Part shown: positions 8,012-56,229 of the stretch, in pieces | Numbering within the stretch: the stretch's first letter is position 1 | Layout of the letters: each line of letters opens with the position of its first letter | Source: Streptomyces sp. PCS3-D2 | GTDB lineage: Bacteria > Actinomycetota > Actinomycetes > Streptomycetales > Streptomycetaceae | Direction of reading: 5' to 3' | NCBI RefSeq assembly: GCF_000612545.2 | Contig: NZ_CP097800.1 | Coordinates: forward strand, 62,001-126,000 | DNA length: 64,000 bases | Position numbers and translations under genes: made by a program | The notes under the pieces: generated by a model | Database searches by the model: none | The model's input: only the letters and a program-made list of their open reading frames with translations | What the model was told of the DNA's origin: nothing

Positions 8012-8098
8012 GCACCGACCCGTGCGCAGCACCCCGCGCGCTGCACCCCGTACCCACCGCCCTGCCGGCACCGACCCGTACGCAGCACCCCGTACCCA
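8012..8098. repeat. Imperfect direct repeats upstream of the O-methyltransferase gene
   Basis: A 24-bp sequence at 8012-8035 recurs at 8068-8091 with one mismatch (starts 56 bp apart). A 14-bp sequence, GCACCCCGTACCCA, occurs at 8043-8056 and again at 8085-8098 (42 bp apart). The block fills most of the 169-bp gap between the SARP-type regulator and the O-methyltransferase. SARP proteins bind direct repeats, so this is a candidate operator, although the periods are longer than the 11- or 22-bp spacing typical of SARP sites. Confidence 0.7.
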
Positions 8099-8168
8099 GC
8101 ACCCGCACGCACCGTCGCGGCCACGGACGTCCCGTCGGCCGCTCCCGTTCGAGAGGAACCCCTGCGCC

Positions 8169-8831
8169 ATGGCCCACCAGACGGCTGCCACCCCCGACCT
8201 GCTCGCCTACGTCCGGGACGTCTCCCTCCGCGACGACGATCTGCTCAGGGAGCTGCGGGAGACCACCGCGGACCTGCCGGGCGGGACCGCGATGCAGGTG
8301 ATGGCGGAGGAGGGCCAGCTGCTCGCCCTGCTGGTCGGGCTGACGGGGGCGCGGGCAGTGCTGGAGATCGGGACCTTCACCGGCTACAGCACCCTGTGCA
8401 TGGCCCGCGCGCTCCCGGCCGACGGGGTGCTGGTGTCCTGCGACATCGAGGAGCGGTGGCCGTCCGTCGGCGCCGACTATTGGAAGCGGGACGGGGTCGA
8501 CGGGCGGATCGACCTGCGGATCGGCGACGCGGCCGGGACCCTGGACGCCCTGCTGACGGAGCGCGGGCCGGAGAGCTTCGACCTGGTGTTCATCGACGCG
8601 GACAAGGCCAACTACGTCCGCTACTACGAGTCCTCGCTCGCGCTGGTCCGCACCGGCGGTCTGATCGTGGTCGACAACACCCTCTTCTTCGGCAGGGTCA
8701 CCGACCCGGCCGCTGTGGATCCCGACACCGAGGGGGTCAGGGCGCTGAACCGGCTGCTGTGCCGGGATCCGCGGGTGGAGCTGTCGATGCTGGTGATGGC
8801 GGACGGGATCACGCTCGCCCGCAAGCGCTGA
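8169..8831 (+). CDS. fkbG: SAM-dependent O-methyltransferase for methoxymalonyl-ACP
   Basis: This 220-residue protein belongs to the caffeoyl-CoA-type class I O-methyltransferases. The SAM-binding motif EIGTFTGYS lies at residues 66-74 and the Mg-binding motif FIDADKANY begins just before Asp143. With the FkbH, FkbI, FkbJ and FkbK homologues nearby it completes the methoxymalonyl-ACP set, in which FkbG methylates the 2-hydroxyl of hydroxymalonyl-ACP. The ATG at 8169 follows GAGAGGAA at ten bases; earlier in-frame starts lie inside the repeat block. It is the only gene of the set on the plus strand, transcribed towards the others and away from the regulator. It could instead methylate the finished macrolide, but size and context favour FkbG. 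Confidence 0.9.
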
Positions 8832-8845
8832 GGGCGGCGGGCCGG

Positions 8846-8893
8846 GGCCCGGGAGCGCGGTGGCCGCCGGGGCGGTCACCGCGCTCCCGGGCC
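8846..8893. terminator. Bidirectional hairpin terminator
   Basis: Bases 8846-8862 pair perfectly with 8877-8893 (17 bp, all or nearly all G/C) around a 14-base loop. It sits between the convergent O-methyltransferase and fkbH-like genes and covers the last codons of the latter. Streptomyces terminators often lack a U-tract, so such a stem is a plausible terminator in both directions. Confidence 0.75.
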
Positions 8894-9976
8894 TCCTTCC
8901 GGCTCGGTGAGGTCGGGTGCGTCCACGCTCATGACGGTGGACACCGTGCGGGGGCCGGGGGCCAGGTGCAGGCGCTGGAGACCCGGTTGGTCCGCCAGCG
9001 CCTCCAGGCCGGCGGCGCACGGGCACGGGTTCTCCTCGATGCCCTCGAAGCCGGCAAAGCGGTAGGCGATCTCCATCATCCGGTTGCGTTCGGTGGCCCG
9101 GAAGTCCGCCACCAGGTGGACGCCGGACCGGGCGGCGGCATCGGCCAGCCAGTTCAGCAGGGTCGCGCCGGCGCCGTAGGCGACGACCCGGCAGGAGGTC
9201 GCGAGCAGTTTGAGGTGCCACAGTCCCGGGTGCCGCTCCAGCAGCAGCACGCCAACCGCGCCGTGCGGCCCGAACCGGTCGGTGAGGGTGACCACCAGGA
9301 CCTCGTGCCGGGGGTCGCTGATCAGACCGCGCAGCACCGCGTCCGGATAGTGCACCCCGGTCGCGTTCATCTGGCTGGTGCGCAGGGTGAGTTCCTCGAC
9401 CCGGGACAGCTCTTCGCCGGTGCCCCGGCCGATGCGCATCCGCAGGTCCAGGGAGCGCAGGAACTCTTCGTCGGGTCCGGGGGCGGCCGCCCGCTCGGCC
9501 TCGCGGCGGAAGCCCGCCTGGTACATCTGGCGGCGCCGCCGGGAGTCGACGGTGCTGGTCGCGGGGGTGAACTCGGCCAGGTCGGGCAGGGCGAGGACCT
9601 GTTCGGCCGGGTAGCACCGTACGTCGGGCAGGTGAAAGGCGACCTCGGCGCGTTCGGCGGGCCGGTCGTCGACGAACGCGATGGTGGTGTGCGCGAAGTT
9701 CAGCCGGTCGGCGATCCGGCGCACCGAATCGGACTTGGCGCCCCAGCCGATCTCCGGCAGGACGAAGTACTCGGCCAGGCCGAAGGCTTCCAGCCTGGCC
9801 CAGGCGTGCTCGTGGTCGTTACGGCTCGCGACGGACTGGAGGATGCCGCGGGAGTCGAGTTCGATCACCACCTTGCGCACTTCCTCCGGCAGGTGCACCT
9901 CGCCGTCCTCCAGCAGGGTTCCCTGCCAGAGGGTGTCGTCCAGGTCCCAGACCAGGCACTTGACCGTCGCTGCCAT
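8876..9976 (-). CDS. fkbH: FkbH-like glyceryl-ACP synthase (HAD superfamily)
   Basis: This 366-residue protein starts the methoxymalonyl-ACP pathway. In the family it takes the three-carbon unit of 1,3-bisphosphoglycerate, dephosphorylates it and loads glyceryl onto the discrete ACP. The N-terminal HAD-type phosphatase motif is LVWDLDDTLWQG (Asp11, Asp13, Thr15). Further HAD signatures follow (SRNDHEHAW, FVDDRPAERAE), and the C-terminal half (about 185-340) is the acyltransferase-like region with VVTLTDRFGPHGAVG. The ATG at 9976 follows GAGGAAGG. It is the last gene of the long minus-strand operon, 35 bp after the acyl-ACP dehydrogenase, and its end lies in the terminator hairpin. Confidence 0.96.
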   Translation of the reverse strand: MAATVKCLVWDLDDTLWQGTLLEDGEVHLPEEVRKVVIELDSRGILQSVASRNDHEHAWARLEAFGLAEYFVLPEIGWGAKSDSVRRIADRLNFAHTTIAFVDDRPAERAEVAFHLPDVRCYPAEQVLALPDLAEFTPATSTVDSRRRRQMYQAGFRREAERAAAPGPDEEFLRSLDLRMRIGRGTGEELSRVEELTLRTSQMNATGVHYPDAVLRGLISDPRHEVLVVTLTDRFGPHGAVGVLLLERHPGLWHLKLLATSCRVVAYGAGATLLNWLADAAARSGVHLVADFRATERNRMMEIAYRFAGFEGIEENPCPCAAGLEALADQPGLQRLHLAPGPRTVSTVMSVDAPDLTEPEGGPGAR

Positions 9977-10011
9977 GTCGGCCTTCCTCGGCTCGTCGTC
10001 CGCGGGCCCGG

Positions 10012-11127
10012 TCACGGGGTCACCGCGGCGGAGAGGGCGTGCTGGGCCAGCATCAGCCGGCACATCTCGTTGCTGCCCTCGATGATCTCCATCAGCTTGG
10101 CGTCCCGGTACGCCCGGGCCACCGCGTGCCCGTCCCGGGACCCGGCCGAGGCCAGTACCTGGACGGCCGTCGCCGCGCCCCGGGCGGCCTGGGTCGCGCT
10201 GACGTGTTTGGCGAGTACGGTCGCGACCACCTGGTCGGGCGACCCCTCGTCCCAGCAGCGGCTGGCGTGCTCGCAGGCCAGGGTGGCCGTCTGCGCGGCC
10301 GTGTAGAGGTCGGCGAGGTGCCCGGCGACGAGCTGGTGCTCGCCGAGCGGTTTCCCGAACTGCTCGCGTCCGGCGGCGTGTGCGGCTGCCGCGGCCAGAC
10401 AGGCACGCAGGATGCCCACGCAGCCCCAGGCGACGGACATCCGCCCGTAGGCCAGTGCGGTCGTCACCAGCAGGGCGGGCGGCAGGCCGTATCCACCCAG
10501 GACGCTGTCGGCCGGCAGCCGCACCCCGTCGAGGTGGACGTCGGCGTGTCCGGCCGCGCGGCAGCCGAGCGGGTCGGCGATCCGCTCGATCCGGACGCCG
10601 GGTGCGTCGGCGGGCACGACGACGGCCGCCGCGCCGTCCTCGTAGCGGCCGACGATGACCAACAGGTCGGCGTAGTGGGCGGCGGTCACCCACTTCTTGT
10701 GGCCGTCCAGAACGACCGAGTCGCCGTCGCGGCGCACGGTCGTCCGCATCGCCGCAAGGTCGCTGCCGGCAGCGGGCTCGCTGAAGCCGACCGCCGCCAG
10801 CCCGCCCCCGGTGAGCCGGGGGAGGTGGGCGGCGGCCTGCTCGGCGGTACCCAGGCGCTGGATGGTCCACGCGGCCATGCCCTGGGAGGTCATCACACTG
10901 CGCAGGGAGCTGCACAGCGCGCCCACGTGGGCGGTGTAGGCGCCGCTGCGCAGGCTGCTCAGCCCCCAGCCGCCGTACTGCTCGGGGACTTCGGCGCACA
11001 GCCGGCCCTCGGCGCCCAGTTCGCGCAGCAGGTCGAGGGGGATCAGGCCGGTGCGGTCCCACTCCCCCGCCCGGTCGCCGACCCGCAGGGTGACGGAGGT
11101 GCGGGCGGCGTTCAGGTCCTCACCCAT
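10012..11127 (-). CDS. fkbI: FkbI-like acyl-ACP dehydrogenase
   Basis: This 371-residue flavoprotein belongs to the acyl-CoA dehydrogenase family. Visible features are the FAD-contact motif GFSEPAAGSD, a central beta domain (GHKKWVTAAHYADLLVIVG), the helical region REQFGKPLGEHQLV and the C-terminal IIEGSNEM, whose Glu (about residue 350) occupies the catalytic-base position. In methoxymalonyl-ACP biosynthesis this enzyme is proposed to oxidise the aldehyde-level intermediate on the ACP to hydroxymalonyl-ACP. The ATG at 11127 lies inside the end of the ACP gene (8-bp overlap with its stop at 11120), so translation is coupled. Confidence 0.95.
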   Translation of the reverse strand: MGEDLNAARTSVTLRVGDRAGEWDRTGLIPLDLLRELGAEGRLCAEVPEQYGGWGLSSLRSGAYTAHVGALCSSLRSVMTSQGMAAWTIQRLGTAEQAAAHLPRLTGGGLAAVGFSEPAAGSDLAAMRTTVRRDGDSVVLDGHKKWVTAAHYADLLVIVGRYEDGAAAVVVPADAPGVRIERIADPLGCRAAGHADVHLDGVRLPADSVLGGYGLPPALLVTTALAYGRMSVAWGCVGILRACLAAAAAHAAGREQFGKPLGEHQLVAGHLADLYTAAQTATLACEHASRCWDEGSPDQVVATVLAKHVSATQAARGAATAVQVLASAGSRDGHAVARAYRDAKLMEIIEGSNEMCRLMLAQHALSAAVTP

Positions 11128-11419
11128 GCAGGCCTCCGGTGGCGGGCACGCGCAGCCGGTCCACCAGCTCCGCCATCCGCCGTACGGTGCGGAAGTTGTC
11201 GAGCCGCAGGTCCGCACCGCGGACGGCTATCGCGTACGTCTTCTCCAAGTGCACGACCACCTGCATGGCGAACAGGGAGGACAGGCCGCCGGCTCCGAAC
11301 AGGTCGGTGTCGGCGTCCCAGGGGGTTCCGGTGTGTCCTTCGAGGAAGCCCAGGAGCTCCTTCTCCAGGTCGTTGATGTTGGGGGTGTCGTGGGTGTCGG
11401 GCGTGTTGTCCGTGGTCAT
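11120..11419 (-). CDS. fkbJ: Discrete acyl carrier protein of the methoxymalonyl pathway
   Basis: This 99-residue stand-alone ACP carries the glyceryl, hydroxymalonyl and finally methoxymalonyl unit. The phosphopantetheine site is in GGLSSLFAMQ with Ser48 as the likely attachment residue. The usual DSL is SSL, a replacement typical of FkbJ-type ACPs as I recall them. The N-terminus is a short acidic, Thr-rich tail. The ATG at 11419 is preceded by GAGGAG. It lies between the fkbK-like gene (24 bp upstream) and the fkbI-like gene (overlapping). Confidence 0.95.
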   Translation of the reverse strand: MTTDNTPDTHDTPNINDLEKELLGFLEGHTGTPWDADTDLFGAGGLSSLFAMQVVVHLEKTYAIAVRGADLRLDNFRTVRRMAELVDRLRVPATGGLHG

Positions 11420-11443: not shown

Positions 11444-12313
11444 TCAGGTGTAGTCGTAGAAGCCGCGTCCGGACTTGCGGCCGAGCCGGCCTTCGCGGAC
11501 GAGCCGGAGCAGCAGCTCGCAGGGGCGGCAGCCGTCGTCGCCGGTCCGTTCGTGCAGCACCCTGAGGGAGTCGACGAGGTTGTCGATGCCGATCAGGTCC
11601 GCGGTGCGCAGCGGTCCGGTGGGGTGGCCCAGGCAGCCCTGCATCAGGGCATCTACGTCCTCGGCGGTCGCCGTGCCCTCCTGTACGACGCGGGCCGCGT
11701 CGTTGATCATCGGGTGCAGGATCCGGCTGGTCACGAATCCCGGCGCGTCCCGGACCACCACGGCCCGCCGCCGCAGCGCCCCGAGCAGCGACCGTACGGC
11801 GGCCATCGCGGGATCGCCGGTGCGGGCGCCGCGGACCACTTCGGCGGTCCCGATCAGGTAGGGCGGGTTCATGAAGTGGGTGCCGACCAGTTCCTCCGGC
11901 CGCTCCACGGCCCCGGCGAGTTCATCGACGGGGATGGAGGAGGTGTTGGTGACCAGCAGGGTGCCGGGCCGGACCAGGGCGGAGACCTCGGACAGTACGG
12001 CGGCCTTGGTGGCCGCGCTCTCGGTGACGGCCTCGATGACGGCGGTGGCCGTGGCCGCGGCCTTCGGCGAGGTGTCGGTGACCAGGGTGCCGAGGGGAGT
12101 GCCGGCCGGCAGCGCGCCCATCAGCTCGGCCAACCGGAGTTCGGAGTCGATCCGGTCCCCGGCCCGGTCGAGCCGGTCCCGGTCCACGTCGACCAGGTGG
12201 ACCGGCAAGCCGTGCCCGAGGGCGAGGACGGTGATGCCGACGCCCATCACTCCGGCCCCCAGCACGGTGAGGGCGTGCGGTATCGGCGGCTCTTCGTACG
12301 GATCGGTGGTCAC
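11444..12313 (-). CDS. fkbK: FkbK-like 3-hydroxyacyl-ACP dehydrogenase
   Basis: This 289-residue enzyme of the 3-hydroxyacyl-CoA dehydrogenase family has an N-terminal Rossmann motif GAGVMG (residues 19-24) with an acidic residue (VDVDRDR) after the second strand, suggesting NAD. It also has TNTSSIPVDEL and GTHFMNPP, and a C-terminal domain ending GRKSGRGFYDY. In the pathway it oxidises the terminal hydroxyl of glyceryl-ACP. The GTG at 12313 is chosen because AAGGAG lies five bases upstream; a GTG at 12364 would overlap the PKS E stop and add 17 charged residues without family resemblance. It is the first accessory gene after PKS E, 47 bp downstream. Confidence 0.95.
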   Translation of the reverse strand: MTTDPYEEPPIPHALTVLGAGVMGVGITVLALGHGLPVHLVDVDRDRLDRAGDRIDSELRLAELMGALPAGTPLGTLVTDTSPKAAATATAVIEAVTESAATKAAVLSEVSALVRPGTLLVTNTSSIPVDELAGAVERPEELVGTHFMNPPYLIGTAEVVRGARTGDPAMAAVRSLLGALRRRAVVVRDAPGFVTSRILHPMINDAARVVQEGTATAEDVDALMQGCLGHPTGPLRTADLIGIDNLVDSLRVLHERTGDDGCRPCELLLRLVREGRLGRKSGRGFYDYT

Positions 12314-12360
12314 GGGCGCTCCTTCTTCCTGCTTCTCTTCGCGTGCGGGGGTCGTCGCCT

Positions 12361-15300
12361 TCACAGGTGACCGGGTGTGCGGAGGGTGGTGCCGAGCCAG
12401 TCGGCGACGGCGTCGCCGGTGGTCGCGACGTGCTGCTCCATGATCGAGAAGTGGTCCCCGGGTACGTCGACGACGGTGTCGGCGGTGGCCCAGGACGAGC
12501 GCCAGTCGCCCGCCTCGGCGGACGGGCGGCCGAGCGGCGCGGAGGCGCGCACCAGCAGCACCGGGGCGCGGACCGCCGGGGGCTTCCAGTCGTCGAGCAG
12601 CCGGAAGTAGCCGCCCATCGCGGTGAGCCGGGTGCCGTCCATCGGGGCCGCGCGGTCCTCGCGGGCGAACATCCCGCCCAGCAGAACGTCGTTGAACTGG
12701 GTGATGCCCTGGTTGTCGGACAGGTAGGTGTCCAGCAGGACGACGGCGGCCGGGCCCGCGCCGCGGCGCTCCAGTTCGGCGGCGACCCCGTGGGCGAGGG
12801 TGCCGCCCGAGGAGGAGCCGGCCAGGACCAGCGTCCGTCCGGGCAGTTCGCGCAGGAGCGTCGCCGCCTGGAACTCCACGAGGGCGGACATGTCGGCGGG
12901 CAGCTCCTCCTCAGGGGTGAACCCGGGGGCGTCCAGGGCGGTGACGGCGTACCGGTCCCGGAAGCGGGCGGCGAAGCGGGCGTACTGGTGTGCGCCGCCG
13001 AGGGCGACGATCGAGCCGAAGCAGACGATCACGGGGGCGTCGGCGCGCTCGTTGAGCCGCAGGATCCGCGGGCCCGTGCCGGCTGCCGCGAGGTCGTCGC
13101 CGCTGTGGAACGCGGGGCGCAGCGCGGAGGCGTTCTTGAGCAGTGCGATGCCCTCGTCGATCCGGCCGAGCGCGCAGGCCTGCCGGAACAGCACGCTTGC
13201 GGGGTCGGCGTCTTCGGTGTGACCCGTGTCTTCGGTGTGGTCGGTGTCAGGAGCTGCGGGTCCGGGGCTGGCGGTGCCCTCGGTGGCGGCGGTGGCGAGG
13301 CGGGCGGCGAGCTCGGCGGGGGTGCCGCTGTCGAAGACCGCCGAGGGGCGCAGCCGCAGGCCGGTGACGGCGGCCAGCCGGTTGCGGAGCTCGACCGCGG
13401 TCAGCGAGTCGAAGCCGACCGAGAGGAACGGCACCGTCGCGGACAGCGCTCCGGCATCGGCGTGGCCGAGGACTTCGGCGGCCTGGGCCAGGACGAGTTC
13501 GCTCAGGATCAGCTCCCGCTCCTGCGCGTCGGCGGCAGTGTCGAGCCGGTGCCGCAGGGCCGCGGCGGCCGTTCCCGGCATCCCCTTCGCTCCGGCCGCC
13601 GCGCCCGGACGGCGCCGGACCAGCGGGCGGAGCATCGGGTGCACCGGGCCGTCGCCGCGCACGGTGAGGTCGAGGTGGGCCAGGACCACGGGGCTGCCGT
13701 CTCCCGGGTCGGAGGCGTCCGCGGCGCACACGGCGTCCAGCAGGGCCATGGCCTCCTCGTCGGAGAGGCCGCGGGCGCCACGCCGGTCGATGCGGCGCCG
13801 TTCGGCGCCGTCGAGTTCCGCCGTCATCCCGCTCTGCCGCTCCCAGGGCCCCCAGGCCAGGGACAGGCCGGGCAGCCCGAGCCGTCGGCGTTCCGCGGCG
13901 AGGGCGTCGAGCGCGGCGTTCGCGGCCGAGTAGGACGCCTGGCCCGGGCTGCCCAGTACACCCGCGGCGGAGGAGAACACGACGAACGCCGAGAGGTCCG
14001 CGCCGCGCGTCAGCCGGTCGAGGTGCCGGGCCGCGTCGAGCTTGGGGCGCAGTACCGCGGCCATCCGCTCCCCCGTCAGCCCCTCCAGCAGGCCGTCGTC
14101 GAGCACTCCGGCGGTGTGGACGACGGCGCAGAGGGGATGGCGTGCGGGGATGTCCGCCAGGGCGGCGGCCAGTTCCTCGCGGTCGGACACGTCGCACCGG
14201 GTGGCGGTCAGTTCGGCGCCGGCCGCGGCCAGTTCCGCCGTCAGCTCCGGTATGCCGGGGGCGTCGGCGCCGCGGCGGCTCAGCACCCGGAGGTGGCGCA
14301 CCCCGTGAGCGGCGACGAGGTGGCGCGCCAGGACGGCCGCGAGGGCGCCGCCGCCGCTCAGCAGCACCGTCCCCTCGGACGAGCCGAACGCCCGGGATCC
14401 GGACGGGGCTTCGGGGGCCGAGGCCACGGGGGCGATGGCCGCGAGGGCGGACGGCCGGATCAGCCGGGGCGCGTACAGGACACCATCGCGCAGGGCCGCC
14501 TGCGGTTCGCCCGCGGCGAGGAGGCCGGACAGCGCGTCGGCGAGACCGGCCGCATCCGGCCCTTCGGTGTCCAGCAGCACGAACCGGTCGGGGTGTTCGA
14601 GCTGGGCGGCCCTGAGCAGGCCCCAGACGGCCGCCGCGCCGAGGTCCGCGGACTGCGGCCGCGTGCCGAGCGGGCCGGTCGCGCCCCGGGTGAGCACCAC
14701 CAAGGGCGTACGGGCGGTGGTGTCGTCGGCCAGGTGGGCCTGGAGACGGTCGAGGACCTGGGACGCCACCGCGTGGACCGCCGTGGGGTCCGGGCCCGGG
14801 GCGTCCGCGCCGGGGCTGTCCGGGGTCCCGCTGCCGGCGGATGGGGGGCAGATCAGCAGCAGCGCGTCGGGGGTCACGGGCGGGGGCTCGACGGGGAAGC
14901 CGTCCGGCAGCAGCCGCTCGTCCCGCGGGCCGAGGAGGCCCCAGCGGGTGACCGGGCGCGGGCCGCTCGCGGCGGTGACCGGCGTCCAGCCGACGTGGAA
15001 GACGGAACCCGAGGACGCGCGCAGCGCGGCGGCGGACGCCGTGCGCAGGGTGAGCGAACCGACCGTCGCCACGGTGCGCCCGGAGGGGTCGGTGATCCGC
15101 GCGGTGACAGCGTCGGGGCCGTCGGAGCGCAGGTGGACGCGCAGGACGGGCGCGTCGGAGGTGTCGATCGCGACGCGCTGCCAGGAGAAGGGCAGCGGGA
15201 CGCCGTCGGCGTTCTCGACGGTCGCGGCGCCTTCGCGCAGGCCGGTCGTCTGGAGGGCCGCGTCCAGGAGGGCCGGGTGCACGCCGAAGCCGGCGGGTCC

Positions 15301-18300
15301 GGTGCCGGGGAGCTCTTCGGGCAGGGCCACTTCGGCGTGGATGCCGTCGGCGGCGCGCCAGGCGGCGTTCAGGCCACGGAACGCCGGGCCGTAGGCGACG
15401 CCCCGGACTTCGAGCAGCTCGTACAGTGCCTCCACGTCCAGGGGGACCGCGCCGGGCGGGGGCCACGCGCCCGGCGTGTCGGCTTGGTCGGCTTGGTCGC
15501 CCGAGGGGTCCCAGGGACCGAGGGTGCCGGTCGCGTGCCGGGTCCAGGGCTGGTCGGCGGCGGTCTCGGGCCGGGAGTGGAACTCCACCGGACGCCGGCC
15601 GGTGCCGTCGTCGGCACCGACCCGTACGCGCAGCTGGACGGCGTGGTCGTCGGCGGCGTCGCCGGGCAGCACCAGCGGTGCGGCCAGGGTCAGTTCCTCC
15701 ACGAGGGCGCAGCCGAGGCTGCGGCCCGCGTGCGCGGCCAGTTCCACGAGGGCTGCACCGGGCACGATCACGGATCCGGCGACGGCGTGGTCGGCGAGCC
15801 AGGGGTGGACGGCCAGGGAGAGCCGGCCGGTGAAGAGGGTGCCCGCTTCCTCGGGCAGTTCGACGGCGGCGCCGAGCAGCGGGTGGTCCGCCGCGGCCTG
15901 TCCGGTGGCCGCCGGGTCGCGGTCGGCGGGCAGGGAGTCGAGCCAGTAGCGGCTGCGTTGGAAGGCGTAGGTGGGCAGGTCGACCCGTCGGGCGCCGGTG
16001 CCCTCGAACAGGGCCTGCCAGTCGACCCGCAGGCCCCGGACGTGGGCCTCGGCGAGGGCGAGCTGCAGCCGGCGGGGCCCTCCGGCCCCGCGCCGCAGCG
16101 TGCCGAGCACCACCGTCTCGGGGGCGCCGGCGTCGGCGGCCGTGTCCTCGATCCCGTACATCAGGGCGGGCTGGGGGCTGGACTCGATGAAGACGCGGTG
16201 TCCGGCCGCGAGGAGCGCGCGGGTCGCCCGCTCGAACTCGACGGTCTGCCGGAGGTTGCGGTACCAGTACTCGGCATCCAGGGCCTTCGTGTCGAGCAGG
16301 CCGCCGGTCACGCTGGAGTAGTACGGCACAGCGCCGGAGCGGGGGGTGATGTCCTCCAGATCGGCGAGCAACTGCTCGTGGATCTCCTCCACGTGCGAAG
16401 AGTGCGAGGCGTAATCGACCTCGATCAGGCGCGCCCACACTCCCTCCTCCACGAACTCCGCCACCAGTTCCGCGACCGCGTCCGCGTCACCCGACACCAC
16501 CGTGGAGGAAGGTCCGTTGACCGCGGCCACCGACAGACGACCAGTCCACCCGGCAAGACGTTCCCGCACCGCGTCCACCGGCAGCGGCACCGACGCCATC
16601 CCACCCCGACCCGCCAACACCCCCACCGCACGCGAACGCAACGCCACCACCCGAGCCCCATCCTCCAGGCTCAAACCACCCGCCACACACGCAGCCGCGA
16701 TCTCACCCTGCGAATGACCCACCACCGCATCCGGAACAACACCGAACGACCGCCACACCTCCGCCAACGACACCATCACAGCCCACAACACCGGCTGCAC
16801 CACATCAACCCGCCCCAGCAACTCCCCCGACCCCAACGCCTCCACCAACGACCAATCCACAAACGGCGACAAAGCCCGCTCACACTCCGCCATCCGCCCC
16901 GCAAACACCACCGACCCAGCCAACAACTCCGCAGCCATCCCCACCCACTGCGAACCCTGACCCGGAAACACCAACACCGTGCGGCCCGGGACCGGTCCGC
17001 TGCCGGTCGTCACATCGGCCGACGCCGCACCCCGCGACAGCGCGGCGATCCCGGCCAGCAACTCGCCCCGGTCCGCCCCCACCACCACGGCACGCTCCGC
17101 GAAGCGCGAACGCCCGGCCGTCAGCGAGTGGCCGATGTCCGCCGCGCTCAGCCCCGGCTCCGCCACCACCCGCTCGTGCAGGGCCGCCGCCTGGTCGCGC
17201 AGCGCCCCGGGCGTACGCGCCGAGAGGACCCAGGGGACGGCGGCGGGTGCCGGTACCGGCTCGCCGGGCTCGTCAACCGGCGTGCCGGTGGCGTCTGTCG
17301 AGCCGGCCGGGGCAGATGGGGCCTCTTCGAGGATGAGGTGGGCATTGGTCCCGCTGGCGCCGAAGGAGGACACGCCCGCCCGGCGCGGCCGTCCCGTCTC
17401 GGGCCAGGGGGTGGCCTCGGTGAGCAGCGCGACGGCGCCCTCGGTCCAGTCAACGCGGGGCGAGGGGCGGTCCACGTGCAGGGTGCGCGGCATCGTGCCG
17501 TGCCGCATCGCGAGCACCGACTTGATCACCCCGCCGACGCCCGCGGCGGCCTGGGTGTGGGACAGGTTGGACTTCAGCGACCCCAGCCACAGCGGCCGGC
17601 CGGCGGGCCGGCCCTGCCCGTAGGTGGCCAGCAGAGCCTGCGCCTCGATGGGGTCGCCGAGGGTGGTGCCGGTGCCGTGCGCCTCCACCATGTCCACCTC
17701 GTCCGGGGCGAGTCCGGCATGGGCGAGCGCCCCGCTGATGACGCGCTGTTGCGCGGGACCGTTCGGTGCGGTCAGCCCGTTGCTCGCGCCGTCCTGATTG
17801 ACGGCCGAGCCGCGGATGACTGCCAGTACGGGGTGCCCGGCGCGCCGGGCGTCCGAGAGCCGTTCCAGCAGGAGCAGGCCCAGGCCCTCGCCGAAGCCGG
17901 CGCCGTCCGCCGTGGCCGAGAAGGACTTGCTGCGCCCGTCGGGTGCCAGGCCGCGCTGGCGGCTGAATCCGACGTACAGGCCTGGGGTGGACATCACGGT
18001 CACGCCGCCGGCCAGGGCGAGGGTGGTGTCGCCGGAGCGCAGCCCCTGGCAGGCGAGGTGGACGGCGACCAGGGACGATGAGCAGGCGGTGTCGAGGGTG
18101 ATCGCCGGGCCTTCCAGGCCCAGGGCGTAGGCGATCCGGCCGGAGGCCACGCTGGGGATGGTGCCGGTGCCGAGGAAGCCTTCGAGTTCGTCGGGCACCC
18201 GGCCGAGCCGGGACGCGTAGTCGCTGTTGATGACTCCGGTGTAGACGCCGGTGCGGCTGCCGCGCAGGGTCAGCGGGTCGATGCCGGCGCGTTCCACGGC

Positions 18301-18702
18301 TTCCCAGGAGGCTTCGAGGAGCAGCCGCTGCTGCGGGTCCATGGCCAGGGCCTCGCGCGGGGAGATGCCGAAGAAGCCGGGGTCGAAGGCGGTCGCGTCG
18401 TGGAGGAAGCCGCCCTCGCGGACGTAGAAGGTGCCGGGGGCGTCGGGGTCGGCGTCGAAGCCTCCCTCGACGTCCCAGCCGCGGTCGTCGGGGAACGGCG
18501 AGACCGCGTCGCGTTCCTTGAGCAGCAGCTCCCACAGGTCTTCCGGGGTACGTACGCCGCCGGGGTAGCGGCAGCTCATGGCCACGATGGCGATGGGTTC
18601 GGCGGAGTCGTCGCGGAGCCGCCGGTTCTCCTGCCGCAGGCGCTGGTTGTCCAGCAGCGAGGCGCGCAGGGCGGCGACCACCTGGTCCGTGTCGGTGGGC
18701 AT
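12361..18702 (-). CDS. Type I PKS E: final module KS-AT-DH-KR-ACP-TE (module 11)
   Basis: This 2113-residue protein performs the last extension and releases the macrolactone. Order and rough residues: N-terminal docking coiled coil 1-30; KS 36-456 (Cys207, with NLSHT where NIGHT is usual); AT 576-919 (GHSQGE, Ser664; YASH at 764, methylmalonyl type); DH with HxxxGxxxxP from His972 and Asp1147; KR from 1445 (LDD B-type motif, Tyr1591); ACP Ser1766; thioesterase with GSSSG (Ser1964) and His2084 in GDHFS. The KR nucleotide loop reads SGGGALAA instead of the usual TGGTGALG, one residue short. Expected chemistry is C2-methyl with a C2=C3 double bond, then lactonisation. The ATG at 18702 follows AAGGAG and gives a normal-length docking region. 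A GTG at 18741, overlapping the PKS D stop by 8 bp, is the alternative start. The AT core belongs to a nearly identical set shared with modules 4, 8 and 10. Confidence 0.96.
16389..16980 (-). repeat. Homogenised AT-domain tract, copy in module 11
   Basis: This part of the module 11 acyltransferase is almost identical at DNA level to tracts in modules 10, 8 and 4. Long stretches, for example from about 16590 to 16970, match nearly base for base, while the flanking KS-AT linker and AT C-terminus diverge. Codons inside the tract favour TTG, TTT, TGT and GAT, unlike the C-ending codons around it. Confidence 0.85.
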
Positions 18703-18733
18703 GGCGTTCGGCTTCTCCTTCTGCGGCTGTCGG

Positions 18734-21700
18734 TCAGTCACGTGTGCCGCCCAGGGCCATCCGGACGAGGTCGTCGACGGTCATGCCGTCGATGTCGGCG
18801 GCGGGGGCCGGTGTCTCCGGCCGGTCGGCGAGGCTCAGGAGGGCGTCGAGCAGGCCTGCCCGGCGCAGTGCGGCGGGCGGGATGGTGGCGAGCAGCGAGC
18901 TGATCTCGTGGTCCCCTGGGTCCGCCGTGACCGCCGTTCCTGCCGTCCCCGTGCCGCCGGGTGCGTCGGGTACGAGGCGCCCGGCGAGGTAGCCGGCGAC
19001 GGCGGCCGGGGTGGGGTGGTCGAAGACCAGGGTCGCGGGCAGCCGGCGGCCGGTGGCGGCGCTGAGCCGGTTGCGGAGTTCGACCGAGGTGAGCGAGTCG
19101 AAGCCGAGGTCCTTGAACGCCTGGTCGGGGTCGACGGTCCCGGCTCCGCCGTGGCCGAGGACGTCCGCGACCCGGCCCTGTACCAGTTCGAGCAGGGTGG
19201 CGACGCGTTCCTCGGAGGTGAGGGCGGTGAGCCTGCGGCGCAGCGAGTCCGCTTCGGCAGCGTCCGCTCCGGAGGCCGGGCGGCGTGCGGTGCCGGGGAC
19301 GAGGCCGGAGAGCAGGGCCGGGACGGGTGCGGTCCGGGCGGCCGTCCGCAGCCGGCCGAGGTCGATCTTGACCGGGACGAGCAGCGGTTCGTCGAGGGTG
19401 AGCGCCGCGTCGAGCAGGGCCAGGCCCTCGTTGCTGCCGATGGCCGCGGTACCGTCCCGGGACATGCGCCGCAGGTCGGCGGCGGTGAGCGTGCCGGTCA
19501 TGGCGCCGCGGCGCTCCCACAGGCCCCAGGCGAGGGACTGGGCGGGCAGCTGCCGGGCCCGGCGCTGCTGGGCGAGCGCGTCGAGGAAGGCGTTGGCTGC
19601 CGCGTAGTTGCCCTGTCCGGCGTTGCCGACCGTGGCGGACGCGGAGGAGAACAGGACGAAGGCGGACAGCGGCAGGTCGCGGGTGAGGGCGTGCAGGTGG
19701 AGGGCGGCGTCGACCTTGGGCCGCAGTACGTGGCCCATCCGCTCGGGGGTCAGCGACTCGACCGTTCCGTCGTCCAGGACGCCGGCCGCGTGCACGACCG
19801 CGCTCAGCGGACGCTCGGCGGGGATCGCGGCGAGCAGGGCGGCGAGGGCGTCCCGGTCCGCGACGTCACAGGCTGCCACGTCCACCAGGGCGCCGAGTCC
19901 GCGCAGTGCGGCCGCGAGGTCGGCGAGGCCCGGGGTATCGGCGCCGCGCCTACCGACGAGCAGCAGGTTCCGCACCCCGTGCACGGTCACGAGGTGCTGC
20001 GCCACCAGGCTGCCGAGGGCTCCGCCGGCCCCGGTGACGAGGACGGTTCCGCCTGCGGCGGCGATGCCGGACGGCGTCTCGGGGTCCGGGTCCGGGTCCG
20101 GGTCCGAGGGGCTGGTGGCCCTGGTGAGGCGGGCGGCGAGGAGTTCTCCGTCGCGTATGGCCAGCTGGGGTTCGGCTGCGGCCAGGGCCCGGGGCAGCAG
20201 GCCGGTCACGGCGGCCGGGTCGTCGGTATCGATGAGCAGGAAGCGGTCCGGGTGCTCGGACTGGGCGGAGCGGACGAGCCCGCGGACCGCGGCACCGGTG
20301 AGGTCGGTGACGTCCTCACCGGCCGCCGTGGCGACCGCGCCCCGGGTGACGAGGACGAGCCGGGTGCCGTCGTCCCACCGCGGGTCGGCCAGCCATTCCT
20401 GGATGAGCCGCAGGGCATCGTCCAGCGCGGCGTGCACGGACGCGGCGTCGGGCGGGGACGGGAGCTGCGGGGTGTGGTCGCACCAGGACAACACCGCGGC
20501 GGGCGACGGAGCTCCGCCGTCGACCGCGGCGGCGAGCGCGGCCAGGTCCGGATGGCTGTCCGAGAAGAGGTCCGGGCCCCCGAGGACGGTCCAGTGTCCG
20601 AGCGGGTCGCCGGGTGCGCCGACGGGCGCCGCCGACCACTCCAGCCGGTAGAGGGATTCAGGGCCGCCAGGGCGGAGGGCGTCGAGGTCGATCGGGCGGA
20701 CGGCGAGCGCCTCGACGGACGCGACCGGGAGGCCGTTCGGGTCGGCCGCGTCGATCGACACCGACCCGTCCGGCCGGAAGCCGAGCCGTACCCGGAGCGC
20801 GGTGGCGCCGGAGGCGTACAGCCTGACTCCGCTCCAGGAGAACGGCAGTCCGGCGGAAGGACGCTCCCGGCCCGGCCCGGCCTCCGGATCGGCGCGCAGG
20901 AACAGTCCCTGGAGGGCTGCGTCCAGCAGCGCCGGGTGCACGCCGAAGGCGGAGGCGGACCGGTGCTGGTCCTGGGGCAGGCGAACCTCGGTGAAGACCT
21001 CATCGCCCCGGCGCCAAGCGGTGGTGACCCCGCGGAAGGCGGGTCCGTACCTGTAGCCGGAAGCGTCGAACCGCTCGTACAGGTCGTCGACCGGGATCGG
21101 GACGGCCCCGGGCGGGGGCCAGGAACCGGCGTCGTCGGGTGCGGGCGCGGGCTTGCGCGGCGTGGCGTCGGCGGTGAGTGCGCCGGTCGCGTGCGCGGTC
21201 CACTGCGGGGTCGCCGCGTCCTCGCGGCAGGAGAACAGATCCAGGGAGCGGCTGCCGTGCGCGTCCTCGGCGCCGACCCGCACTTGCAGCCGTACGGCGG
21301 TGTCGGCGGGAATCAACAGCGGTGTCTGGAGCGTCAGTTCCTCGACCGTGTGGCAGCCGACCTCATCCGCGGCGCGTACGGCCAGTTCCGCGAAGGCCGC
21401 CCCGGGGAGCAGGACCGTTCCGGCCACGGCGTGGTCGGCGAGCCAGGGGTGCGTACGCAGCGACAGCCTCCCGCTGAGCAGCAGTTCGCCCGTGTCCGCC
21501 AGCTCGATGGCAGCCCCGAGGACGGGGTGGTCGGCCGGGTCGAGCCCGGCCGCACCCACATCGGCCGCCGCGGTGGGCGCCGGCTCGGGCCAGTAGCGGG
21601 TGCGTTGGAAAGCGTACGTCGGCAGCTCGACCCGCCGCGCCCCCGGAAACGCCCCCGACCAGTCCACGCCCACACCGCGTTCCCAGGCCCGGCCCACCGC

Positions 21701-24700
21701 ACGCAGCACCTGATCGAGACCACCCTCACCACGACGCAGAGTGCCGAGCACCGCGGCGTCCACACCCGCGGCCTCCACCGACTCCGCCACGGCCACGCCC
21801 AGCACCGGGTGGGCGCTGGCCTCGATGAAGACGCGGTGCCCGCTGTCCAGCAGCGCACGGGTCGCCTCCTCGAAGCAGACCGTCTCCCGCAGGTTGCGGT
21901 ACCAGTACTCCGCATCCAGAGCCTTCGTATCCAGCCAACCACCCGTCACCGTCGAGAAGAACGGCACCGAACCCGAGCCCGGCGCCACCCCGGCCAGATC
22001 CGCGAGCAACTGCTCACGGATCTCCTCCACATGCGAAGAATGCGAGGCGTAATCGACCTCGATCAGGCGCGCCCGCACCCCCTCCTCCACGAACTCCGCC
22101 ACCAGTTCCGCGACCGCGTCCGCATCACCCGACACCACCGTGGACGAAGGCCCGTTGACCGCGGCCACCGACAGACGACCATCCCACCCGGCGATCCGCT
22201 CCCGCACCGCGTCCGCAGGCAGCGGCACCGACGCCATCCCACCCCGACCCGCCAACACCCCCACCGCACGCGAACGCAACGCCACCACCCGAGCCCCATC
22301 CTCCAGGCTCAAACCACCCGCCACACACGCAGCCGCGATCTCACCCTGCGAATGACCCACCACCGCATCCGCCGTCACGCCATAGGACCGCCACACCTCC
22401 GCCAACGACACCATCACAGCCCACAACACCGGCTGCACCACATCAACCCGCCCCAGCAACTCCCCCGACCCCAACGCCTCCACCAACGACCAATCCACAA
22501 ACGGCGACAAAGCCCGCTCACACTCCGCCATCCGCCCCGCAAACACCACCGACCCAGCCAACAACTCCGCAGCCATCCCCACCCACTGCGACCCCTGCCC
22601 CGGAAACACCAACACCGTGCGGCCGTCCACCGTGCGCCCGCCGTCCCAGGCCTGTGCGTCGGCGTCGGCGTCGGCCAGTTGGTCCAGCAGGGTGCGGAGT
22701 CGGTCTGCGTCGCCGATCAGGGCTTTGCGGTGCTCGAAGGAGGTGCGGGCGTGCAGCGCGGAGCCGATGTCGCGGGGGTCCGCTGCGGGGCTGCCGTCGA
22801 GGTGGCGGCGCAGGCGGTCGGCCTGGGCCCGCAGGGCCTGCGGGCTCTTGGCCGACAGCAGCCAGGGCACCGCGGGCAGCGGGGTGCGGGCGACCGGCGG
22901 GCCGTCGTCCTCAAAGGGGGTGTGTTCGAGGATGGTGTGGACGTTGGTACCGCTGAGGCCGAAGGAGGACACACCGGCCCGGTACGGGCGGTCGTGCGCC
23001 GGCCAGAGCTGCTGCTCGGTCGCGAGGGCGAGCGCGCCGCGGGTCCAGTCGACGTGGCCGGACGGCCTGCCGACGTGCAGGGTGCGGGGCACCTCGCCGT
23101 GTCGCATGGACAGCACCGTCTTGATGACCCCTGCCACGCCCGATGCCGCCTGGGCGTGGCCGAGGTTGGACTTGAGCGAGCCGACCAGCAGGGGCCGGTC
23201 GGCGGGCCGGTCCTGCCCGTACGTCGCCAGCAGGGCCTGCGCCTCGATGGGGTCGCCGAGGGTGGTGCCGGTGCCGTGCGCCTCCACCACGTCCACCTCG
23301 GACGCCGTCAGGCCCGCGTCCGCGAGCGCCGCCCGGATGACCCGCTGCTGGGAGGGGCCGTTGGGCGCGGAGAGGCCGTTGCTGGCGCCGTCCTGGTTGG
23401 TGGCCGAACCACGGACCACGGCCAGGACGGGGTGCCCGTTGCGCCGGGCGTCCGAGAGACGTTCCAGCAGCAGGACGCCGACGCCTTCGCCCATGCCCAT
23501 GCCGTCCGCGTCGTCTGAGAAGGCCTTGCAGCGGCCGTCCTCGGCGAGTCCGCGCTGACGGGAGAAGCTGATGAAGGCGCCGGGGGTGGCCATCACGGCG
23601 ACGCCGCCGACCAGGGCGAGGGAGCAGTCTCCGCCGCGCAGGGCCCGGCCGGCGAGGTGCATCGCGACGAGGGAGGAGGAGCAGGCCGTGTCGATGGTCA
23701 CGGCGGGGCCTTCCAGGCCGAGGGTGTAGGCGACCCGGCCGGACACGACACTGGGGGCGCTACCGGTGAGGAGGTGGCCGTCGCCTTCTTCCGACTGGGC
23801 GACGACGGCGGCGTAGTCGGCGTAGTTGACGCCGGTGAACACTCCGGTGCGGCTGCCGCGCAGGGCGACGGGGTCGATGGAGGCGCGCTCGATGGCTTCC
23901 CAGGTGGTTTCCAGGAGCATCCGCTGCTGGGGGTCCATGGCCACCGCTTCGCGCGGGGAGATGCCGAAGAATTCGGCGTCGAAGTCGGCGGCGTCGTGCA
24001 GGAAGCCGCCGCGCCGGGTGGTGGAGGTGCCGGGGTGGTCGGGGTCGGGGTCGTAGAGCGCTTCGATGTCCCAGCCGCGGTCGGTGGGGAAGTCCGAGAC
24101 GGCGTCGCCGCCTTCGGCGAGCAGCCGCCACAGGTCTTCGGGGGTACCGATGCCGCCGGGGAAGCGGCAGGCCATGGACACGATCGCGATCGGCTCGTCG
24201 TCGGGTACGGGGGCGGGCGCGGCGGTGCCCGAGGGGTCGGTGTGCGCCGTGGCGGTCTGCAGGCCGAGGAGTTCCGCGCGGATCTCCTCGGCGAGGGCGG
24301 TGGACGAGGGGTGGTCGAAGATCAGGGTGGACGGCAGCCGCAGTCCGGTGGCGGTGTTGAGCCGGTTGCGGAGTTCGACCGCGGTGAGGGAGGCGAATCC
24401 CATGTCCTGGAAGGCCTTGCCGGGCCGGATCGCGTCCACGGTGGGGTGGCCGAGGACGGCGGCGGCGTGGGTGCGGACCAGGTCGAGCAGCAGGCGGCGC
24501 TGTTCGGATGCGCCGAGGGCGGCGAGCCGTTGCCGCAGCTGTGCGGCGGCGGGTGCCTCGGTGTCGCCGGTCGTCTCGTCCAGGGCGCGGCGGGCTTCGG
24601 GGATGCCGGTGAGCAGCGGGCTGGGGCGGGTGGAGGTGAAGACGGCGGCGAACCGCTCCCAGTCGACGTCGGCGACGGCGAGTACGGTCTCGTCGTCGTC

Positions 24701-32100: not shown

Positions 32101-35100
32101 GACAGGTCGTGCGCGTGCAGGGTCACGGCGTCCGGCGCGTCGGCGGCGAGCCGCACGCGCAGCGTGGTGGCCCCGGCGATCCCGCAACTCACCCCGTTCC
32201 AGCTGAAGGGCAGCCGGGCCCGGCCGTCCCGGTCGGGCAGCAGAACGGCGCTCTGGAGGGCCGCGTCCAGCAGCGCGGGGTGCAGCGCGCATCCGGCGGC
32301 GTCGGCGTGCTGCGGCTCCGGCAGCACCACCTCGGCGAACACCTCGCCCCCGCGCAGCCACGCGGCACGGATGCCGCGGAAGGCGGGCCCGTAGTGGTAG
32401 CCGGCCTCGGCGAACCGCTCGTAGAGGTCGTCGGTGTCCACGGGTTCGGCACCGGACGGCGGCCAACTCAGCAGACCGGCCGCGGCCGGGTCCTCGACGG
32501 GCCGGGGGGCCAATGTGCCGGTGGCGTGCTCGGTCCAGGGCCCGTCGGCGCCCCGCGTCGTCCGCGCGAACACGCTGAGCCCGCGGCGACCGTCGCCGTC
32601 GACCGCGGCCACGCGCAGCTGAAGGTGGACGGCTCCCTCGGCGGGGAGTACGAGCGCCGATCCGAGGGTGAGTTCCTCGACCACCGGGCAGTCCGTCTCG
32701 GCCGCGGCGCGCAGCGCGAGTTCGAGAAAGGCCGTGCCCGGGAAGAGGACGACGCCCGACACCGCGTGGTCGGCGAGCCAGGGGTGGGTGTCCAGCGAGA
32801 TCCGGCCGCTGAGCAGCAGCTCACCGGAGTCCGCGACCTCCATCGCCGCACCGAGCAGCGGGTGCCCGGTCGTGGCGAGACCCGCCGAGGCGACATCCCA
32901 GCTCGTCGTCGGAACGTCCAGCCAGTAGCGGCTGCGTTGGAAGGCGTACGTCGGCAGTTCGACCCGCCGCCCGCCCGGGAACGCCCCCGACCAGTCCACC
33001 GCCAGACCGCGTTCCCAGGCCCGGCCCACCGCACGCAGCACCTGATCAAGGCCGCCCTCACCACGACGCAGGGTCCCCAGCACCGCGGCATCCACACCCG
33101 CCGCCTCCACCGACTCCCCCACCGCGACCGACAGCACGGCATGCGCACTCGGCTCCACGAAGAAGCGGAAGCCCTCCCCGAGCAGCGTGTCCGTGGCGTT
33201 GCCGAACTCGACGGTCTCCCGCAGGTTCCGGTACCAGTACTCCGCATCCAGAGCCTTCGTATCCAGCCAACCACCCGTCACCGTCGAAAAGAACGGCACC
33301 GAACCCGGGCCCGGCGCCACCCCGGCCAGATCCGCGAGCAACTGCTCACGGATCTCCTCCACATGAAAGGAGTGCGACGCATAATCGACCTCGATCAGAC
33401 GCGCCCGGACGCCTTCGGCGACCAGCCCGTCCACCCACTCCGCCACCGCGTCCGCGTCACCCGACACCACCGTCGAGGAAGGCCCGTTGACCGCGGCCAC
33501 CGACAGACGACCATCCCACCCGGCAAGACGTTCCCGCACCGCGTCCGCCGGCAGCGGCACCGACGCCATCCCACCCCGACCCGCCAACACCCCCACCGCA
33601 CGCGAACGCAACGCCACCACCCGAGCCCCATCCTCCAGGCTCAAACCACCCGCCACACACGCAGCCGCGATCTCACCCTGCGAATGACCCACCACCGCAT
33701 CCGCCGTCACGCCATAGGACCGCCACACCTCCGCCAACGACACCATCACAGCCCACAACACCGGCTGCACCACATCAACCCGCCCCAGCAACTCCCCCGA
33801 CCCCAACGCCTCCACCAACGACCAATCCACAAACGGCGACAAAGCCCGCTCACACTCCGCCATCCGCCCCGCAAACACCACCGACCCAGCCAACAACTCC
33901 GCAGCCATCCCCACCCACTGCGAACCCTGACCCGGAAACACCAACACCGCACGACCCGAGACCAGCCCGCTGTCGGAGATCGCGGCGCCCTGCGACAGTG
34001 CGTTCAGGCGCTCGGCGAGCTTGTCCTCGGTGCCCACGAGCACCGCGCGGTGTCCCAGCGCGCCGCGGCCGGCGGCCAGGGAGAAGGCCACGTCCGCGGC
34101 GCGGGCACCCGAACCGTCGGTGATCCGGGCCGACAGCGCCGCCGCCTGGGCGCGCAACGCTTCCGGAGTGTGCGCCGAGAGGAGCAAGGGGACGGCGGCG
34201 GGCTCGGTCTCCGGTGTTCCGGTTCCCTCGACCAGCGTGTCCGAGGCCTCTGTTGGGGCCTGTTCGAGGATGACGTGGGCGTTGGTGCCGCTGACTCCGA
34301 AGGAGGACACGCCCGCCCGTCGCGGACGGCCCGCGTCGTCCCACGTACGGGCCTCCGTGAGCAACTGGCCGGCTCCCGCCGACCAGTCCACCTCGGGCGT
34401 CGGGCCGTCCACGTGCAGCGTCTTCGGCATCACTCCGTGCCGCAGGGCCAGCACCGATTTGATGACCCCGGCGACACCGGCGGCTGCCGAGGCGTGTCCG
34501 ATGTTGGACTTGAGCGAGCCGATCCACACAGGCCGGTCCGCCGGACGCCCCTGCCCGTACGTCGCCAGCAACGCCTGCGCCTCGATCGGGTCACCCAGCC
34601 GGGTCCCCGTACCGTGCGCCTCCACCACGTCCACCTCGGCAGCCGACAACCCCGCGTCCGCCAACGCCGCCCGGATCACCCGCTGCTGCGACGGACCGTT
34701 CGGCGCCGTCAACCCATTGCTCGCACCGTCCTGGTTCACCGCAGAACCACGGATCACCGCCAGCACCGGATGCCCGTTCCGCCGCGCGTCCGACAACCGC
34801 TCCACCAGCAGCATGCCCACGCCCTCGCCGAAGGCGGTGCCGTCGGCTGCCGCGGCGAAGGACTTGCAGCGGCCGTCGGGGGCCAGGCCGCCCTGCCGGC
34901 TGAACTCGACGAAGAGTTCGGGGCTGCACATCACATTGACGCCGCCGGCCAGGGCCAGGGAGCATTCGCCGGACCGCAGCGCCCGTACGGCGAGGTGCAG
35001 GGCGACCAGGGAGGACGAGCAGGCCGTGTCGACGGTGACCGCGGGGCCTTCCAGTCCGAAGAAGTAGGCCAGGCGTCCGGAGACGATGCTGCCCGAGTTG

Positions 35101-41043: not shown

Positions 41044-56229
<15,186 letters not shown>

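Follow-up and report, generated by a model that had tools for sequence, protein, structure and literature searches.

Gene conversion appears to have carried a GRINS-type core into the last acyltransferase of a bafilomycin-type polyketide synthase, with a putative selectivity residue kept

GRINS are described as stretches of about 1 kb in polyketide synthases (PKSs) that are more than 90% identical to sequence elsewhere in the same PKS and have both GC and TA skews above 25% (PMC10394414). A related process is the concerted evolution of acyltransferase (AT) domains, in which ATs are homogenised within a cluster and KS domains hold their place, and for which exchanges in the rapamycin family are described as near-neutral for the product (PMC4256081). 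In the concanamycin PKS, methylmalonyl-CoA ATs carry the motif RXR(X)5YASH and methoxymalonyl-ACP ATs the motif MXW(X)5YASH, in which further hydrophobic residues can stand at the places of M and W; the RXR place has been tied to carrier recognition (PMC4207774). The same paper counts the last ~30 AT residues among the specificity-linked regions. Bafilomycins have methoxy groups at C2 and C14, and in Streptomyces griseus DSM 2608 the last module (module 12 in that paper's count) was deduced from the product to take methoxymalonate; its AT looks like the methylmalonyl ATs, and no significant difference was found there between methoxymalonyl and methylmalonyl ATs (PMC3679948).

The window studied here is a 64-kb stretch of the genome of Streptomyces sp. 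PCS3-D2. Its minus strand encodes the later modules of a bafilomycin-type PKS, whose first gene extends past the window, up to window-frame position 70738. The cluster has five PKS genes, a loading and 11 extension modules and a methoxymalonyl-ACP gene set, the layout taken as bafilomycin-type after PMC3679948, and S. griseus DSM 2608 likewise has five PKS genes, 12 modules counted with loading, and methoxymalonate genes. Twelve AT domains were found in the whole cluster. Those of modules 2 and 6 have the malonyl-type motif HAFH, and AT5 (48808..49761, minus strand) is methoxymalonyl-type by motif (L-T-W ... FAGH) and lies outside the converted set. The last PKS protein, encoded by pksE (12361..18741, minus strand), comprises module 11 (KS-AT-DH-KR-ACP) and the thioesterase, as judged from Pfam matches to KS, AT, DH, KR, ACP and TE. 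Directly downstream of pksE is a complete methoxymalonyl-ACP gene set, assigned by Pfam: a 3-hydroxyacyl-CoA dehydrogenase (11444..12364), a discrete acyl carrier protein (11120..11419), an acyl-CoA dehydrogenase (10012..11217, the real start probably being lower) and an HAD hydrolase reading frame (8876..10009), all on the minus strand, followed by an O-methyltransferase (Methyltransf_3; 8022..8831, plus strand). The HAD protein is presumably FkbH-like, a name based on sequence features and on the gene order in PMC3679948. A complete set would suit an AT11 that still loads methoxymalonyl-ACP, although module 5 alone could account for these genes.

The core of AT11 (16389..16980, minus strand) was found by blastn within the window to match without gaps the cores of AT4 (53937..54528, 96.6%), AT10 (22027..22618, 95.6%) and AT8 (33359..33949, 93.7%), all on the minus strand, and the remaining ATs matched at 66-77% over partial length. 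The sequence-only reading of this DNA had already pointed out the near-identity to these three cores and the difference of the flanks; both hold, and the flanks follow the AT11 of other species. Two points go beyond it: the tract ends shortly after YASH, and AT1, which lies outside the window (genome C1:128784-129375; L009:2784-3375), is by sequence match a fifth copy at 96%. AT4 is nearest to the AT11 core, and AT1 and AT10 are almost equally good as donor. Within the tract, the identity of AT11 to these four sisters in 120-base windows is 92-100% (AT8 drops to 79-83% near the 3' end), compared with 77-90% to the AT11 of five species with the W-A-T/S motif described below, 75-89% to that of S. 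uncialis and 61-82% to that of cluster G478. Outside the tract the sisters drop to 40-90%. The five AT11 orthologues are 84-98% identical there in the KS, the AT C-terminus and the start of the DH; in the KS-AT linker, which is variable, their range is 71-90%.

Breakpoints were mapped by a 3SEQ-like maximum-excursion test with 12 parent pairs and 5000 permutations each. With AT4 as one parent, the segment ended at 16981 and 16365 when paired with either of two AT11 orthologues, and at 16980 and 16371 with a third; with AT8 as parent the ends were 17017 and 16469. For all 12 pairs, none of the 5000 permutations was as extreme. The ends against AT4 (16365 and 16981) agree with the breakpoints near 16390 and 16980 that had been predicted for a pasted core. 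Identity and the AT4 breakpoints give a tract of 592-617 bases, which stops shortly after YASH and leaves the last third of AT11 unconverted; diagnostic columns and breakpoints delimit this AT11-specific C-terminal third at 16036..16377 (minus strand).

For comparison with other species, genomes were searched with the module 11 C-terminal protein at E values up to 1e-90. Matches were found in 17/395, 15/393, 10/296, 7/70 and 15/392 genomes of overlapping sets, the first three counts including the window's own genome, and a contig scan with the same protein gave 11 loci. Eighteen clusters were taken, 17 with a usable AT11, which together with three partial loci and the window made 21 clusters. 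Fifteen of these, with a module 11 C-terminal protein at least 83% identical to that of the window, were classed as bafilomycin-type; the six more distant ones are G077, S. varsoviensis, G275, G533, G634 and G677. Loci L020 and L021 did not serve as AT11 orthologues, nor did cluster G476; the matching genomes G024 and G069 were set aside, as were those with 47-49% matches (G351, G433, G450, G525, G537, G548, G696 and G706). In two of the distant clusters, G533 (L067-L069) and G634 (L064-L066), the AT5-like AT is followed by seven others, where the bafilomycin layout has six, which may mean a larger ring. Each of the two ends in an AT that reads M-A-W. In the draft assembly of S. varsoviensis (L052-L054), AT1, AT4 and AT8 are fragmented, as expected if near-identical cores were mis-assembled, and AT11 (L052) has GHGPG at the active site, which lacks the catalytic Ser, and HAFH in place of YASH, so that it looks inactive as assembled.

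An AT11 core of the sister family was found in 14 of the 15 bafilomycin-type clusters, the window included, with G478 as the exception. One of the 14 is from Kitasatospora cheerisanensis KCTC 2395. The AT11 of G180, which we take to be K. setae KM-6054, has a sister-type core too. Bafilomycin derivatives, among them the C1-amide, are reported from K. cheerisanensis KCTC 2395 (PMC4064034), and K. setae is described as a bafilomycin maker (PMC4064034; PMC11117518 for the strain sequenced there). In G177 the catalytic Ser codon of AT11 is intact. SM1 is 97% identical at the thioesterase; the match on its contig C720 ends inside the AT11 core, before the motif, so SM1 cannot date the conversion event.

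Comparisons of the trees showed that the core of AT11 has a history different from that of its surroundings. The KS tree has 8 module-label changes, the minimum for nine modules, compared with 58 in the core tree and 31 in the AT C-terminal tree. All 19 AT11-module rows are on one side of a branch in the KS tree, as are all 21 AT11 rows in the C-terminal tree, where other modules are also mixed; in the core tree the AT11 rows are scattered, and the largest pure AT11 set has 6 of the 21. With 59 sister rows in the comparison, the AU test rejected a single clade of the 21 AT11 cores (p 1.3e-58), a rejection strengthened by the G478 core and the six distant cores among the 21. This discordance is what the sequence-only reading had expected of separate core and flank trees. 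The KS tree used 137 of 143 rows, the AT11-module rows of G177 and G533 being lost; no tree or count includes the incomplete AT10 rows of S. halstedii and K. purpeofusca or the fragmented AT1, AT4 and AT8 of S. varsoviensis, and G533 and G634 contributed only AT5 and the last AT. In the careful core tree, the window AT11 groups with its own AT1, AT4, AT8 and AT10 (100/100) and stands outside these four (99/95), the AT11 cores of G180 and G151 nest with their own sisters, and those of the six more distant clusters form a clade of their own (100/100). The core phylogeny thus disagrees with both flanks and breakpoints are mapped, as in gene conversion. We infer a recombination act behind this pattern, with a direction from the sisters to AT11 because the AT11 cores of the six distant clusters form their own clade. 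As in the concerted evolution of ATs, the ATs are homogenised within the cluster and the KS domains hold their place, but the exchange at AT11 crosses between methylmalonyl-CoA and methoxymalonyl-ACP ATs, unlike the rapamycin-family exchanges, described as near-neutral for the product (PMC4256081).

The base composition of the tract is that of GRINS. Over the 592 bases from the AT start, the coding strand of the AT11 core has a GC skew of +0.44 and a TA skew of +0.51; the cores of AT1, AT4, AT8 and AT10 have +0.45 to +0.47 and +0.49 to +0.51, and those of AT3, AT5, AT7 and AT9 have -0.17 to -0.01 and +0.09 to +0.17. The flanks have little skew, with GC/TA values of -0.10/-0.02 for the AT C-terminus and +0.04/+0.06 for the module 11 linker. 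Within the AT11 core the skew peaks over the first two thirds and fades before the RXR motif: 150-base windows have +0.21/+0.06 starting at 16521 and 0.00/+0.08 starting at 16446, so that the motif and the bases around it lie beyond the most GRINS-like part. With 93.7-96.6% identity within the PKS and both skews above 25%, in a cis-AT actinobacterial PKS and with apparent gene conversion, the tract fits GRINS, length being the less clear point: about 0.6 kb (592-617 bases) compared with about 1 kb (PMC10394414). It differs from the GRINS described there also in that the set includes an AT thought to use another extender and carrier, and in that a residue of the carrier motif is unconverted.

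We then compared AT11 with its sisters column by column in 12 bafilomycin-type clusters, that is, with the window, S. uncialis, G478, G077, G677, G275, G533, G634 and S. varsoviensis left out. Only 3 of the 198 core columns fully separate AT11 from the sisters, at AT positions 174, 179 and 181. Position 179, the first RXR place, is W in 12/12 AT11 and R in 37/37 sisters, and position 181, the third, is T or S in 12/12 AT11 and R in 37/37 sisters, so that the motif reads W-A-T/S in AT11 and R-A-R in the sisters. Fully diagnostic columns number 13 of 114 in the AT C-terminal part, 12 of 88 in the post-AT part and 30 of 376 in the KS. When labels were shuffled, no diagnostic core column arose in 1999 of 2000 trials, a test that ignores the shared ancestry of the AT11 rows, 8 of the 12 forming one group on the core tree (87/87). 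A better argument for a kept motif is that the AT11 cores of G180 and G151 nest with their own sisters yet retain W-A-T. In 9 of the 9 W-A-T/S clusters for which the data were complete, divergence from the nearest sister is higher in the island around the RXR place than elsewhere in the core (p<=0.0061, with island limits picked after the diagnostic columns had been seen).

Across the available rows of all 21 clusters, R stands at the first RXR place in 104 of 105 AT1, AT3, AT4, AT7, AT8, AT9 and AT10, AT5 reads hydrophobic-X-W in 17/17, and AT11 has a hydrophobic residue at the first place in 20/21; the six more distant AT11s read M-A-W (5) or M-A-F (1). The motif MXW(X)5YASH was reportedly set out for the methoxymalonyl-ACP ATs of concanamycin by Haydock et al. 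in 2005. The bafilomycin-type AT11s resemble it in having a hydrophobic residue where RXR has its first Arg, ahead of YASH, and differ in that the converted AT11s read W-A-T/S (W-A-R in the window), with a hydrophobic residue at the first place only (PMC4207774). Relative to the published account of S. griseus DSM 2608, the three diagnostic core columns are a difference, found by comparing 12 clusters that do not include S. griseus KC514471, and they offer an answer to the missing AT difference reported there (PMC3679948). No published description of a retained RXR residue in a converted AT11 was found in a search mainly of open-access papers.

In the window, the carrier-recognition and YASH motifs of AT11 read W-A-R-(X)5-YASH (16402..16437, minus strand; motif rule of PMC4207774). 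The Trp at AT position 179, the first RXR place, is encoded by TGG (16435..16437, minus strand), where sequence comparison gives CGG in AT4, AT8 and AT10, the differing base being 16437. GHSQG and YASH, both expected of methylmalonyl-CoA ATs, are present, and RXR(X)5YASH is not, the place reading WAR; measured against the methoxymalonyl-ACP motif, the first place is hydrophobic and the third is R. Positions 181 (R) and 174 (V) are as in the sisters. In the unconverted part, AT11-type residues stand at 12 of the 13 diagnostic C-terminal columns and at 10 of the 12 post-AT columns. The island of the window differs from AT4 at 2 of 45 bases, compared with 21 of 549 in the remaining core (p 0.53), and none of the other 20 of the 21 clusters has a W-A-R AT11. 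The AT1 of the window strain also reads W-A-R with TGG, the only one to do so among 59 AT1, AT4, AT8 and AT10 rows; from 16441 to 16402, base 16437 is the sole AT11-like base in AT1 relative to AT4 and AT10, and AT1 is AT11-type at 0 of the 13 C-terminal columns. Apparently, conversion in the window erased the rest of the RXR island while TGG stayed. Between 16747 and 16734, nine bases set AT11 apart from each of the four sisters, and six of the nine are the common base (at least 30 of 37) among the sisters of other species, which suggests that AT1, AT4, AT8 and AT10 kept homogenising after AT11 last took part.

Our main reading, with a probability of roughly 0.7, is that GRINS homogenisation has crossed a substrate boundary with the selectivity residue kept, and that the product is mainly C2-methoxy, maybe with some leakiness. 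The cores of AT1, AT4, AT8, AT10 and AT11 would be GRINS-type repeats, repeatedly homogenised by gene conversion within each genome, and AT11, thought to load methoxymalonyl-ACP in bafilomycin, would have joined the set before the sampled bafilomycin-type clusters diverged, because its sister-type core is so widely shared. Conversion of AT11 halts before the C-terminal third and usually spares the short RXR island, which reads W-A-T/S and not R-A-R; selection on extender choice would retain the hydrophobic residue at its first RXR place. A later conversion would have overwritten most of the island in the window lineage, turning T/S into R, with TGG still present. With W179, 12/13 C-terminal and 10/12 post-AT columns kept, C2-methoxy would still be expected, and some C2-methyl leakage is possible. 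Several points weigh against this reading. W-A-R occurs in no AT11 of the other 20 clusters, so the specificity assumed for it is conjectural; the AT1 of the window strain should load methylmalonyl-CoA yet reads W-A-R, so W alone may not decide; the window shows no contrast between island and core, and TGG could thus have arisen by a chance C-to-T change; and the skew falls off before the motif, so the island may escape conversion without selection.

A possible, though somewhat unlikely, alternative is that methoxymalonyl-ACP selectivity sits in the unconverted C-terminal third and the linkers, W being incidental. Diagnostic columns are denser there (13/114 and 12/88, compared with 3/198 in the core), the last ~30 AT residues are listed as specificity-linked (PMC4207774), and the AT1 of the window strain has W but none of the 13 AT11-type C-terminal columns; yet the diagnostic columns may reflect plain vertical descent where there was no conversion, and the island inside the converted G180 and G151 cores would be left to explain. 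This alternative is compatible with our main reading, in that the conversion history and the C2-methoxy prediction stay. More doubtful is the narrower proposal that extender choice in AT11 hangs on one selected codon. With little of the island left in the window strain and a matching Trp in AT1, the synthase might then be dual-specific at C2 and possibly C22, and, if so, the sampled species would form a natural series (MAW, WAT/WAS, WAR, RAR and AT5-like replacement) from which a selectivity code could be read.

Hygrolidin is the C2-methyl counterpart among the plecomacrolides. The sequence-only reading had proposed that a methylmalonyl-AT tract was converted into AT11 and thereby swapped C2-methoxy for C2-methyl. 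Trees and breakpoints bear out the conversion; the swap, by which the AT11 of the window strain would now load methylmalonyl-CoA and the product would be a hygrolidin-like C2-methyl plecomacrolide, we consider distinctly improbable. It would fit the core, which carries GHSQG and YASH and shares 93.7-96.6% identity with four methylmalonyl-type ATs, and the third RXR place, which is now R as in the sisters, in a W-A-R unique among the sampled AT11s. But a sister-type AT11 core is present in 14 of 15 clusters, including that of K. cheerisanensis, a reported bafilomycin maker (PMC4064034), and W179 and 12 of the 13 C-terminal diagnostic columns are retained. A literature search for the C2 structure of hygrolidin or hygrobafilomycin did not find it.

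An assembly error that mis-joined repeated cores is very improbable: near-identical repeats do break assemblies, and in SM1 the C720 match ends at the same query position in the AT11 core as an AT match on C519, but the window lies within a 7.5-Mb contig of a 3-contig genome, its copies carry private differences, and AT11 cores that nest with sisters of the same genome occur also in G180 and G151, each of which is a single contig. Recent module duplication in place of conversion, which core identity alone would fit, was rejected as next to impossible on the KS and C-terminal trees, since on the KS tree the modules group by position with as few changes as possible, and the flanks go with their orthologues even between genera.

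Two other clusters have an altered AT11. In S. uncialis DCA2648 (L018, L055-L057), the motif of AT11 is R-A-R, and over AT positions 121-200 this AT is 90-96% identical to AT1 and AT10 of the same cluster. It has the AT11-type residue at none of the 3 diagnostic core columns, at 6 of the 13 C-terminal ones and at all 12 post-AT ones, so the proposed switch from methoxy to methyl fits S. uncialis better than the window strain, and S. uncialis may be a candidate for a real C2-methyl switch. A second tract was seen in its module 11 KS-AT linker (L055), where AT positions -99 to -40 are 86-100% identical to the linker before AT1. In G478 (L058-L060), the AT11 core is AT5-like (GVLTW...FAGH), as if replaced by the other methoxymalonyl-type AT.

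GRINS conversion is known; here it spanned two kinds of AT that are believed to differ in extender and carrier. Of the three core columns that withstood it in the 12 clusters, two are the RXR places proposed for recognition of the ACP carrier. Identity of the core to methylmalonyl ATs, with GHSQG and YASH, is by itself not predictive of a C2-methyl product. The window strain, S. uncialis and G478 amount to natural experiments that bear on the part of the AT responsible for extender choice, and the residues retained in converted AT11s provide an evolutionary test of those needed for choosing methoxymalonyl-ACP, a choice that PKS engineering seeks to control.
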